Positions 5,676-20,494 of a stretch of DNA of 54,162 nucleotides are shown piece by piece. The notes below the pieces were generated by a model that was given only the letters and a program-made list of their open reading frames with translations, was not told where the DNA came from and ran no database searches. Made by a program: the position numbers and the translations under genes. Within the stretch, counting starts at the first letter, position 1. Each line of letters starts with the position of its first letter. Source of the DNA: a bacterium (Candidatus Blackallbacteria) CG13_big_fil_rev_8_21_14_2_50_49_14 (GTDB lineage Bacteria > Cyanobacteriota > Sericytochromatia > UBA7694); assembly GCA_002783405.1 (NCBI GenBank), contig PFGG01000043.1, forward strand, positions 1-54,162. Reading direction: 5' to 3'.

Positions 5676-7202
5676 GTGAACGCGCTGACAGAAAAAATCC
5701 GGTCCGGTCTCTGCCGTTTTGTCGGTGAGATCCTTCTGGAAGCCGGCCTGGTTTCTGCGCAGGATCTGGCTCAGGCAGTAGAAATTCAAAAAGAAACCCA
5801 TGAACTCATTGGGCAAATTCTCGTGCGCAATGGGTGTTTGAGTCAGCAGGAACTGGTTGATGTTTTGGAATTGCAACTGAATAACCGTTTGGATCGTTCC
5901 CGCCGCCTGCATAAACATTTGGGTGAAATTTTGCTTGAGAATCAAGCCATTAGCCGCTGGCAGTTGGCAAAGGCCCTGCATGAACAGGGCGTACGTGAGG
6001 CTAAAATTGGTCAGGTCTTGGTCAATTTAGGCTATACCTCTCGTGGCAAAGTAGAGCAGGCCCTCAGTGATCAGGCCATTGGTGCGATTGCTCAACGCAG
6101 TGCCCGACGTGTTTCAATGGGTGAACTTTTGCTGAAAACAGATCGTCTGACTCCCGAGCAATTGCATCTGGCTCTGGAAGAACAGCGTGAAACCCACGAT
6201 TATTTGGGCAATGTGCTCGTACGCCAGAAGGTGCTGACAGAAGATGAACTCGAAGACGTTTTAACCACGCAACTGTGGATGCAATATGCATCAGGGGGCA
6301 GTGGCCACCAAGGCCAGGCCGCTCCTCAACCCGTTCGTAAAAAATTAGGTGAAATTCTGGTGGATACCCACCAGCTCAGCCGTGAACAGTTGGAAACAGC
6401 CGTCGAAGAACAACACCGCAGTGGCCTGCGCCGTTTGGGCGATATTCTTGTTGAAAAAGGACTTTTGCCTTTTCAGGAACTGATGCGTGCCCTGCGTCTG
6501 CAGAAACGTCTGGCCAATTTGGCGATGAGTTCGGTGCTGGGGGCTACTTTACTTGCCGCCTGCGGCACGCCGACCGTTCCCCTGCAACCCATGATGTATG
6601 GGGACGTTACCCCCACCATGATGACCCAATCTGTTTCGACGGCCCAGGTTTTATCCGGCCCGTTCAAGGTTTTACAGGTGGGAGAAGGTCAGCGTATCAA
6701 GATTTACCAGAATGGCAGCAAGGTACTTGAAAATGTGCCTTTTTTCCGCCAAGGCAATGACAATACCTGTGGCCAGGCTGTTTTGACCTCGCTCTTGAAC
6801 TATTGGGGCCTTCAGATGACCTACCAGCAGGTGGTGGATCAGGCCAACCCGAATAATTTGCCCACAACCGATGATGCCATCACCAATTATCTGCGCAAGA
6901 AAGGGCTCAAAGCCCAGGATTATCGCAGTGGTCAGTTAGATCATCTGATCTCCCAGATCAATAAAGGGCGCCCCACCCCGGTTTTGCTGGATTTTGGGGG
7001 GCTCTCCCAGGAGCACTATGTGCTGGTGGTGGGCTATAACCAGAAAAAAGGCACCTTGGTCATGCACGACAGCCTGGAAGGGCCCTACGTGGAAATGGAT
7101 ATGAATCTTTTTCAGAAGATGTGGGATAACAGCTCAATCCGCCGCGTGCATATCTTTGCCGGTGATAACTACAAACGCCTCTATTTTGACGTTTTTCGTT
7201 AA
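5676..7202 (+). CDS. Fusion of four MshEN-like units, internal lipobox and C39-like peptidase
   Basis: The 508-residue protein begins with eight half-repeats of the pattern LGxxL-x(6-8)-L-x3-L-x2-Q, arranged as four pairs at about 16-67, 81-133, 148-199 and 224-276. This is the MshEN layout; in type II secretion and MSHA ATPases such a domain binds cyclic di-GMP. A basic stretch, a hydrophobic segment and a lipobox LAAC (293-296, Cys296) follow. The C-terminal domain has the C39-like cysteine peptidase triad: Cys365 in NDNTCGQAVL, His447 in EHYVLVVGYN, and Asp465. The start is GTG at 5676 behind AGGGAG. ATG at 6483 (Met270) sits behind AGGA and would give a normal lipoprotein precursor. Tandem terminators follow. 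The substrate is unknown. Confidence 0.85.
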   Translation: MNALTEKIRSGLCRFVGEILLEAGLVSAQDLAQAVEIQKETHELIGQILVRNGCLSQQELVDVLELQLNNRLDRSRRLHKHLGEILLENQAISRWQLAKALHEQGVREAKIGQVLVNLGYTSRGKVEQALSDQAIGAIAQRSARRVSMGELLLKTDRLTPEQLHLALEEQRETHDYLGNVLVRQKVLTEDELEDVLTTQLWMQYASGGSGHQGQAAPQPVRKKLGEILVDTHQLSREQLETAVEEQHRSGLRRLGDILVEKGLLPFQELMRALRLQKRLANLAMSSVLGATLLAACGTPTVPLQPMMYGDVTPTMMTQSVSTAQVLSGPFKVLQVGEGQRIKIYQNGSKVLENVPFFRQGNDNTCGQAVLTSLLNYWGLQMTYQQVVDQANPNNLPTTDDAITNYLRKKGLKAQDYRSGQLDHLISQINKGRPTPVLLDFGGLSQEHYVLVVGYNQKKGTLVMHDSLEGPYVEMDMNLFQKMWDNSSIRRVHIFAGDNYKRLYFDVFR

Positions 7203-7316: not shown

Positions 7317-7441
7317 TCAATGTGACTTTTCGCTTTGAGTTGGATCATGGACAACTCCCATCAGGTAAATGATTTGGTTACGTTGTCCGATAAAGAAGAA
7401 GGGACGGTTGACCTCGATCTTGTAAACATGGTCAGCCAAAA
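7317..7441 (-). pseudogene. C-terminal remnant of a second serpin gene
   Basis: Reading the minus strand to the TGA at 7317-7319 gives about 40 residues that end a serpin: ADHVYKIEVNRPFFFFIG, then QIIYLMGVVHDPTQ and a short basic tail. This matches the conserved serpin end, in which a hydrophobic strand is followed by ILFMGRVxNP. It also resembles the end of the intact serpin just upstream (TILYMGIVNDPSQ). There is no start codon or body. The remnant is joined at about 7440-7450, in a different frame, to a truncated IS256-type transposase. It is best read as the 3' end of a tandem serpin copy destroyed by an insertion and deletion. Confidence 0.75.
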
Positions 7442-7606
7442 GAGGCGGTAATCATACCTGCTATAGCCCAGTTCAGCCTCTAACTCCGCTTCCAGCATGG
7501 TTTCAAATGTTTCTTTGTAGATGTCTTTAACCAGACTGTTAATATCTTCTATTGATTTGATTGCGCCGGATTGAACCAAATCTTTTAATAACTCTTTTCT
7601 TTGCAT
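7442..7606 (-). pseudogene. IS256-family transposase, N-terminal fragment
   Basis: About 55 residues match the start of IS256-type (mutator class) transposases: MQRKELLKDLVQSGAIKSIE, a helix ending FETMLEAELEAELGYSRYDY, then an abrupt loss of homology. The DDE catalytic domain, normally a further 340 residues or so, is missing. The frame continues by chance through the serpin remnant to 7361. ATG at 7606 keeps a good GGAGG ribosome site. The fragment cannot transpose. Confidence 0.85.
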
Positions 7607-7691: not shown

Positions 7692-9065
7692 TCAACCCTG
7701 GCTGGGATCATTGACAATGCCCATATAGAGAATGGTATTATAATTGCCGTAAATAATATATAAATAAGGCTTGTTGAGAATAAAATTTATTTTGGGACGA
7801 TTATCCCCAAAATCCTGTCCCGTTGATTTTTCTTTTTCTTTGTTTATCCCATTTTCATTAAAAGAAACTTTGTTTGCATGTAAAATATGAACGGGTGTTT
7901 TCGCTAAATTTTTTATCCCTAATTGCTCAATCATTGGTATAAGATCATGGCTTTGTTTTTGATTCCAAATGGGAAGAACTACCTGATTAATATCTTTGAG
8001 TTCTTGCGTTTCAATTAACTTTTCCCATTGCTCAACTGAAAAGGTTTGCGCCCAATCTAAAGCTTTTTCTTCTTTGGGTAAAATCGTCATCATGATGCAA
8101 GATCTTGTGGCTTGCGTCAAAGTTTGCGTATTGTAAAGTTCAGAATATAAAACTTCTTTTCTGTCATCAATCGAAAGATTATTCGACAAAGAAGGATCGA
8201 TGCGCATGAATCGCTGTTGTTTTTTTTCTTTTAAGGCCGTTTCAAACAGATCTGTTTTAGATTGACCTGTGTAAAAAGTATAAAGCCAATGAGAACTTAA
8301 ATAGAATGAATTAAAAAATAGATTTTGTAAATCCAATGTTTGAGGGGGTATTGAAATTAGGTCAATGTTTTGGTTTTGGGTGAGACTCTTGACCCAATCA
8401 TTGATTTCCTTGAGAGGATTTGAACTGTTTCTCCTGAATTCAGTGGCATATTTTCTTGCAAAAGCTGGAGTGATGCTGGCGTTATTTTCTTGAGAGAAGA
8501 AAAGGTTGATAAGTTTTAACTGGTTCCAATCAGTGGGTATGTCCAACGTGAACTCAGACAAATCCAAAGTTAAGGATTGAGAGTGATTTTCTTCATTGCT
8601 CATAGCTCTTAAAAATAATGAAAATTCGTATTCTATTTGAAAATCGCTCATGCCTTCAATGTGTAGAGCTTTACCGAGAGATACTTTTGACTCTCCTTCT
8701 GCATTTTGATAGAACAGCGTGAGCATGGCTCCTATTGCAAATGGAGAAAAAAGAAGATTCTTATTTGGCTGCATGTCTTTGCTCAAGATATGCAATAAAT
8801 CAAAGGCCAGCAGGCGATAACCCCGCAGTAACTTGCTTTGATTCAATTCAGTCTGTTCTTGCAAACTCAAAGGAGACAAACTGGGCATTGCTGTGGGGGT
8901 GGGCTGAGGGCTTGCACTGGGTGCTCTTTGCACAGAAGTCTGAACAGGAGAAGGTTCAGTCTGTGCTTGTGGCCATTGGCAAGCCTGAGCTGTGAGCAGG
9001 AGGAGCCCCATGCTCAAGCATTGTCCGAGGTGTTTATAAGCTTGACGTTTTATAGGTTTATTCAT
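7692..9065 (-). CDS. Serpin-like lipoprotein
   Basis: The 457-residue protein has a signal sequence with a Cys at position 29 after LLLLTAQA (an atypical lipobox), then a Pro/Ser/Thr-rich linker (about 32-66) and a serpin fold. Serpin features are SPFAIGAMLTLFYQNAEGES near the N-terminus, an NSFYLSSHWLYTF strand and the C-terminal TILYMGIVNDP. The hinge of the reactive loop (about 404-416), which needs small residues for inhibition, reads NENGINKEKEKSTG. The charged P12-P9 residues argue against classical protease trapping. The start follows the TGA of the EPTP fragment by six bases. Local composition is AT-rich, which suggests transfer. A structural role is possible. Confidence 0.85.
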   Translation of the reverse strand: MNKPIKRQAYKHLGQCLSMGLLLLTAQACQWPQAQTEPSPVQTSVQRAPSASPQPTPTAMPSLSPLSLQEQTELNQSKLLRGYRLLAFDLLHILSKDMQPNKNLLFSPFAIGAMLTLFYQNAEGESKVSLGKALHIEGMSDFQIEYEFSLFLRAMSNEENHSQSLTLDLSEFTLDIPTDWNQLKLINLFFSQENNASITPAFARKYATEFRRNSSNPLKEINDWVKSLTQNQNIDLISIPPQTLDLQNLFFNSFYLSSHWLYTFYTGQSKTDLFETALKEKKQQRFMRIDPSLSNNLSIDDRKEVLYSELYNTQTLTQATRSCIMMTILPKEEKALDWAQTFSVEQWEKLIETQELKDINQVVLPIWNQKQSHDLIPMIEQLGIKNLAKTPVHILHANKVSFNENGINKEKEKSTGQDFGDNRPKINFILNKPYLYIIYGNYNTILYMGIVNDPSQG

Positions 9066-19543: not shown

Positions 19544-20494
19544 ATGTCAAAACTCACCAAGGCTGACAAGGAACGCCTCTATAGTATTGGTTCGAAACTG
19601 CATCTGACCACAGACTGGAAGCGTAACGCAAAGCAGATTTCAGAACTTTTTTCTGAAAACGTGCCTGAAATTGAGATGGCTACCTACTGGACCCAAACCA
19701 ATGATGCTCTTTACCTGACCCCTGGAGCTGAAACGGTTTTTTCAGAGTATGTCCAATCTCTGAAGCGTGGAGACGTGGTGCAGAGTGAATCTTTGCAACC
19801 GATTACCAGTCTCGAGAATTGTTACAGCATGTCTGTGAAATTGGATTCGCAGATGTTGGGACTGATGTTGGTTCAACTGAAGGATGAAGCTTCGATGCAG
19901 ATGGCTGAGCAATATATCAATGTGCTTTTGCCTCAGTTTGCCCTGGCCCGCTTTGCCACGGAAATGCAGGAAGAAGTAGAAAAACGCACCAGCACGGATA
20001 AAATGACAGGCCTTTGGAAACGCTCCTATTTCAATGAGCGCTTTCGTGAAGAAAGTGAACGTCTCAGCCGCTCGAAAGAAATTGGCGTTGTGGCTGTGAT
20101 GGGCATGGATGATCTGGCCGCGATGGTGCGGATGCTGCCGATTGAAGAACAGAACCACCTGCTTTCGATGGCAGGTAAAACCCTGCGCAATTTACTCCGT
20201 CAAACGGACTGGGTGGTACGTTGGGATAATTATGAAGTACTTTTCTATTTCCCCAATACGCCCCCTGAGGCTGCCGTAGATGTCTTTGGACGTTGCGTGA
20301 AGGCTTTGGTACGTATCAACCCGCTTCTGCAGGTTGTCGTGGGCATGTGCAGCACCTCAGAGACCACCTCTGCCCGTGGCTTGATTCAATTGGCGGATAA
20401 ACGTCTGAATTTGGCACGTAAGGATGGCCGCCACCAACTGATCTGTTTTGCCAGCAAGGCAGCAGGTCTGAAGTTCTGGCAATATAATTCCTAA
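19544..20494 (+). CDS. Degenerate GGDEF-domain protein
   Basis: The 316-residue protein has an N-terminal sensory-like region (about 1-135), possibly GAF-like, and a C-terminal domain laid out like diguanylate cyclase. DKMTGLWKRSYF (152-163) corresponds to the usual DxLTGLxNRRYF. The active-site GGDEF loop is replaced by RWDNYEVLF (226-234), so cyclic di-GMP synthesis is unlikely. It may be a signal-binding or partner-binding pseudoenzyme. ATG at 19544 follows GGAG by ten bases. A strong terminator ends the pair with the roadblock gene. Confidence 0.8.
   Translation: MSKLTKADKERLYSIGSKLHLTTDWKRNAKQISELFSENVPEIEMATYWTQTNDALYLTPGAETVFSEYVQSLKRGDVVQSESLQPITSLENCYSMSVKLDSQMLGLMLVQLKDEASMQMAEQYINVLLPQFALARFATEMQEEVEKRTSTDKMTGLWKRSYFNERFREESERLSRSKEIGVVAVMGMDDLAAMVRMLPIEEQNHLLSMAGKTLRNLLRQTDWVVRWDNYEVLFYFPNTPPEAAVDVFGRCVKALVRINPLLQVVVGMCSTSETTSARGLIQLADKRLNLARKDGRHQLICFASKAAGLKFWQYNS

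Follow-up and report, generated by a model that had tools for sequence, protein, structure and literature searches.

The MshEN (GSPII) domain of MshE, PilB, PilF and NfrB is a 53-residue unit of two halves, with the motif RLGxx(L/V/I)(L/V/I)xxG(L/V/I)(L/V/I)xxxxLxxxLxxQ as given in the 2016 MshEN paper (PMC5013675) and with position 1 widened to R/K/L in PMC11731258. Tandem arrangement has a precedent in PilF, which has three such domains in a row. Known MshEN carriers are cytosolic ATPases or membrane glycosyltransferases; the fusions listed in the 2016 paper are with ATPases, with glycosyltransferases or 'other', and the word 'peptidase' does not occur in its main text (PMC5013675). The protein described here has the same two-half unit and most of the contact positions, but places four bare units before a lipoprotein signal and a peptidase. 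This peptidase has the fold and the catalytic Gln, Cys, His and Asp in common with other C39 members (the ComA and LahT/PCAT1 peptidase domains and the PA2778 family). While C39 lies within an ABC transporter in ComA and LahT/PCAT1, here there is no transporter, and the enzyme is predicted to be exported and lipid-anchored.

In purpose, the fusion may work like LapD-LapG (and the Dvh system), in which cytosolic cyclic di-GMP (c-di-GMP) controls a periplasmic cysteine protease (PMC3032545, PMC3032553), since here too the ligand would control such a protease outside the inner membrane. In LapD, a degenerate EAL domain and a HAMP relay serve to sequester a separate C93 protease, LapG, whereas the fusion joins MshEN units and a C39 protease in one chain, with C93 absent. 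Having another receptor domain, another protease family and a single polypeptide, it is not a member of LapD-LapG. In enterococcal pheromone lipoproteins, what signal peptidase II leaves behind has its own function, as a short secreted peptide. Compared with those lipoproteins, whose field is covered in PMC7117660, the remnant here would be much of a protein in itself, a folded receptor some 275 residues long that stays in the cytosol.

The fusion gene lies at positions 5676-7202 on the forward strand of the window, by which we mean the whole 54,162-nucleotide stretch that was analysed, and all parts of the gene are given below in window positions on that strand. The genome belongs to the class Candidatus Sericytochromatia, poorly known, non-photosynthetic relatives of cyanobacteria. 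A GTG codon starts the 508-aa open reading frame, which runs from an MshEN array through a type II export signal to a C39 peptidase domain and has orthologues in related genomes. We confirm that this MshEN array-lipobox-C39 peptidase architecture is real. The original prediction had called it unfamiliar, and so it still appears: in the literature searched there was no published description of the architecture, no paper pairing MshEN or the GspE N-terminal domain with C39, and none on an internal lipobox. The individual parts all belong to known families, and the arrangement is what appears to be new.

A search of related genomes, as the original prediction had proposed, finds array, lipobox and C39 domain in one frame in 18 genes from 15 of the 18 class genomes, the window's genome included. 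Searched with a 75-position profile of the junction, these 18 genes reach 87-116 bits, and nothing else in the class exceeds 61.3 bits. One genome (G003) has the gene divided over two contig ends with about 30 residues in common, another (G004) shows only the array, at a contig end, and a third (G007) has an array-less form only; neither form was found in G016. The named relatives are metagenome-assembled genomes. The phylum search covered 292 genomes, 18 of them in the class, and returned no fusion among the other 274 at 1e-15. Beyond the phylum, contigs were scanned with one exact peptide pattern, DNTC[GA]QA[AV], so that homologues elsewhere may be missed; the hosts are mostly Candidatus Sericytochromatia, some labelled Tanganyikabacteria or Cyanobacteria bacterium UBA7694, with no other known group and two matches titled only 'bacterium'. 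The 18 fusions in 15 genomes rule out an assembly artefact or a chance fusion; the two halves are carried across the class as one gene and not as separate genes that a faulty assembly has joined.

Both halves are under strong purifying selection as protein. Comparison of the window with its same-genus orthologue gives a dN/dS of about 0.07 for array and peptidase alike, a ratio that is approximate because synonymous sites are near saturation; at nonsynonymous sites, unit 4 (0.071) is more constrained than any other unit. The junction itself was found in no other exported protein, the next-best profile matches ending before the lipobox or containing stops, and the other MshEN reading frames checked in the window's genome have no comparable segment after the array.

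The eight half-repeats, which start at residues 15, 44, 81, 110, 147, 176, 223 and 253, pair into four 53-residue MshEN units spanning residues 15-276, in agreement with the original prediction. Profile searches assign the repeats to a c-di-GMP-binding family and not to an unrelated one: for the whole protein, the match to NF053729 (NCBIfam, MshE-related c-di-GMP-binding domain) has an E-value of 6.4e-52, and in the genome search each unit alone exceeds its 38-bit cut-off. The scores are 56.1 bits for unit 1 (residues 15-67, 5718-5876), 51.8 for unit 2 (81-133, 5916-6074), 54.5 for unit 3 (147-199, 6114-6272) and 48.6 for unit 4 (223-276, 6342-6503), which adjoins the membrane signal. Taken as profile evidence, these four matches are far beyond chance. 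Among solved structures, phmmer matches the N-domains of MshE, PilF and PilB.

Comparison with the published motif indicates that Gly3, the aliphatic residues at positions 17 and 21 and Gln24 are kept in all eight half-motifs, as is the aliphatic residue at position 2. Position 1 is not R/K/L in four of the eight, and the turn glycine at position 10 departs in four; units 1 and 4 lie nearest to the consensus and unit 3 furthest from it. With the R/K/L of position 1 or the turn glycine missing from several half-motifs, c-di-GMP binding may fail in some units. At least one unit is likely to bind the ligand; that all four do so is less certain. An alignment of 14 fusions further shows that Gly225, Gln246, Gly255, Leu273 and Gln276 of unit 4 are invariant. 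The number of units per fusion varies, with four in the window's family and two or three elsewhere.

Directly after unit 4 come a Lys-Arg pair and then a hydrophobic stretch that closes with LAA (together residues 277-295); Cys296 is next, and the whole segment covers residues 277-296 (6504-6563). This cysteine (codon 6561-6563), the predicted lipidation site, had been proposed as part of an internal lipobox; it does lie within LAAC and is invariant in the 14 aligned fusions. The segment thus has the basic residues, the hydrophobic core and the lipobox with an invariant Cys of a lipoprotein signal; a short n-region at the N-terminus is missing, the signal starting after about 276 residues. An array-less paralogue in the same genome (G000:C25, L002) has an ordinary N-terminal lipoprotein signal before the same peptidase, and similar genes are found in G001, G005 and G007. 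The array thus occupies the place of the signal-peptide n-region. In the C39-domain tree several forks are open and the array-less forms need three changes, a pattern compatible with one gain of the array followed by loss and with the reverse order. Together with the array-less paralogue, the invariant Cys, the basic residue before the core and a core that in the junction alignment is four residues shorter in G006 identify the segment before Cys296 as a type II export signal, unusual in the roughly 275 folded residues ahead of it. The window's genome encodes one Lgt and two LspA proteins, and has 17 GGDEF matches and 43 MshEN-motif matches; with the GGDEF, Lgt and LspA genes present, c-di-GMP and lipoprotein processing are both available.

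Beyond the lipidation site, a variable linker (residues 297-345, 6564-6710), gapped in the alignment, leads to the C39 domain (residues 346-508, 6711-7199). This C-terminal part matches both Peptidase_C39_2 (1.5e-14) and Peptidase_C39 (6e-11) in Pfam; the PA2778-family profile gives 48.5 bits, under its cut-off of 150. The C39-like peptidase with Cys365, His447 and Asp465 that the original prediction described is thus borne out, and these three residues are invariant in the 14 aligned fusions. So is Gln359, the oxyanion Gln, which completes the catalytic set and was absent from that earlier list.

Helices that run from a folded domain into a hydrophobic segment are easily over-extended in structure predictions. 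The AlphaFold2 model built from the 14-sequence alignment (mean pLDDT 73.6, pTM 0.41) has a confident C39 domain and helical MshEN units, and joins the last unit's ligand-contact helix to the hydrophobic core in a single helix, residues 266-294. Confidence drops along this helix and is below 50 at residues 288-322, so that the helix end is uncertain. Foldseek aligns the C39 part of the model with the peptidase domains of ComA, of a PCAT-type transporter with leader peptide (6mpz) and of PCAT1, and the TM score to the ComA and PCAT domains is about 0.8 by target length.

We tentatively favour, at a probability a little short of even, a prelipoprotein in which a c-di-GMP-binding array in the cytosol controls how a lipid-anchored periplasmic protease is exported or processed. 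A folded cytosolic array of MshEN units would replace the signal-peptide n-region, and the last helix of unit 4, with two predicted ligand contacts (Leu273 and Gln276), would run on as the hydrophobic core to the lipobox. The C39 domain would cross the inner membrane (N-in, C-out), Lgt would lipidate Cys296, and signal peptidase II would probably cut, so that the cysteine protease would be lipid-anchored in the periplasm while the array stayed on the cytosolic side. Insertion, lipidation or cleavage would come under the control of c-di-GMP bound to the array, especially to the unit nearest the membrane, and with it the amount of protease that reaches the periplasm. In favour of this reading are the four units above the motif cut-off with most contact residues kept, the invariant lipobox Cys and C39 site, the shared junction, the array-less paralogues with ordinary lipoprotein signals, the single model helix, the strong constraint on unit 4, and the GGDEF, Lgt and LspA genes of the genome. 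Against it count the varying number of units, the half-motifs that depart from the consensus, the uncertain end of the model helix, and neighbours that point to no pathway or substrate. Binding, topology, cleavage, the direction of control and the substrate are all points that we infer here. The narrower proposal that occupancy of the last unit, whose helix is the signal core, directly gates export and maturation of the protease, after which signal peptidase II frees the cytosolic c-di-GMP-binding array, is possible but doubtful.

The main rival to the prelipoprotein reading is an uncleaved bitopic receptor-protease, whose helix would stay transmembrane while the c-di-GMP-bound array inside switched the attached C39 domain outside, as a one-protein counterpart of LapD-LapG. 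The continuous model helix from the last ligand contacts into the hydrophobic core is consistent with such a receptor, as are the precedent of LapD-LapG, where cytosolic c-di-GMP controls a periplasmic cysteine protease (PMC3032545, PMC3032553), and the scarcity of LapG-type C93 proteases, which have no PF06035 match in the window's genome and are absent from 17 of the 18 class genomes and present in one. It gives no role, however, to the invariant lipobox Cys, its core has few residues for a membrane-spanning helix, fewer still in G006, and LspA and Lgt are present, which makes an uncleaved receptor somewhat unlikely. A signal core, by comparison, may differ in length as the core in G006 does, in support of the prelipoprotein reading. 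An invariant lipobox points to signal peptidase II separating the mature protease from the array; if so, what is controlled would be export or processing, and no lasting receptor would span the membrane. The original prediction is thus supported in part: its family assignments and architecture stand, and the coupling of cytosolic c-di-GMP to proteolysis across the membrane is still a proposal.

Less likely than this receptor are a degenerate scaffold and internal initiation. As a scaffold, the array would cluster the protein or slow its export without sensing c-di-GMP. MshEN-like domains can lose binding, as in the GSPII-A domain of PilF (PMC11731258), and half of the eight half-motifs depart at position 1 and half at the turn glycine; yet the last unit shows no variation across the class at its contact Gly, Leu and Gln, and the dN/dS of about 0.07 extends over the array, so a non-sensing role seems unlikely. 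Alternatively, the gene could yield two products, an array protein and an ordinary lipoprotein started internally at ATG 6483 (Met270), which stands 26 codons before Cys296 behind an AGGA-like sequence and would open a textbook lipoprotein signal. This is very improbable, since six of the 18 fusions lack any ATG, GTG or TTG at 13-40 codons upstream of the Cys and no position is common to the rest, while synonymous sites at the junction have diverged as much as elsewhere. We therefore reject an internal start as a general explanation for the family, the start not being conserved and the junction showing no synonymous constraint.

If the array binds c-di-GMP and governs the peptidase, one polypeptide would be enough to link a second messenger in the cytosol to proteolysis beyond the membrane, in a group almost entirely without LapG-type C93 proteases. 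It would also mean that a large folded sensor can precede a lipoprotein export signal, an arrangement expected to escape signal-peptide predictors that look near the N-terminus.

The fusion gene adjoins an amidohydrolase gene near lpxD, ompH and bamA in the window's family, and a ThiL-like gene elsewhere. These neighbours are housekeeping or variable, and they indicate no pathway or substrate. Just downstream of the fusion gene, on the reverse strand, the window encodes a lipoprotein-like serpin (7692-9065; Pfam Serpin 9.6e-29). A partnership between the two was considered and dropped, as relatives have no serpin at this position. Between them, at 7317-7606 on the reverse strand, another serpin seems to have left a broken C-terminal end, the stretch RPFFFIGQRNQIIYLMGVVHDPT, and beside it an 81-aa reading frame without a Pfam match resembles, by eye, the start of a transposase. 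Next to the fusion in a same-genus genome, a reverse-strand gene (L045, 6775-8043) contains GKGTCAAAS, reminiscent of a different papain-like cysteine peptidase.

Elsewhere in the window, a GGDEF-family domain (19991-20434, forward strand, 55.9 bits) lies within a 316-aa reading frame at 19544-20494; its signature site is apparently WDNYE and not GGDEF, so it is probably an inactive cyclase. The genome is also rich in free-standing MshEN arrays, including a cluster of longer arrays on contig 48 (L004, L006 and L009, G000:C48) and an array-only protein of roughly 208 aa that occurs in two same-family genomes as well (L003, L042 and L044). In other class members, proteins at L040, L041 and L043 have MshEN units and, after them, a helical C-terminal region that is long and not of lipoprotein type.
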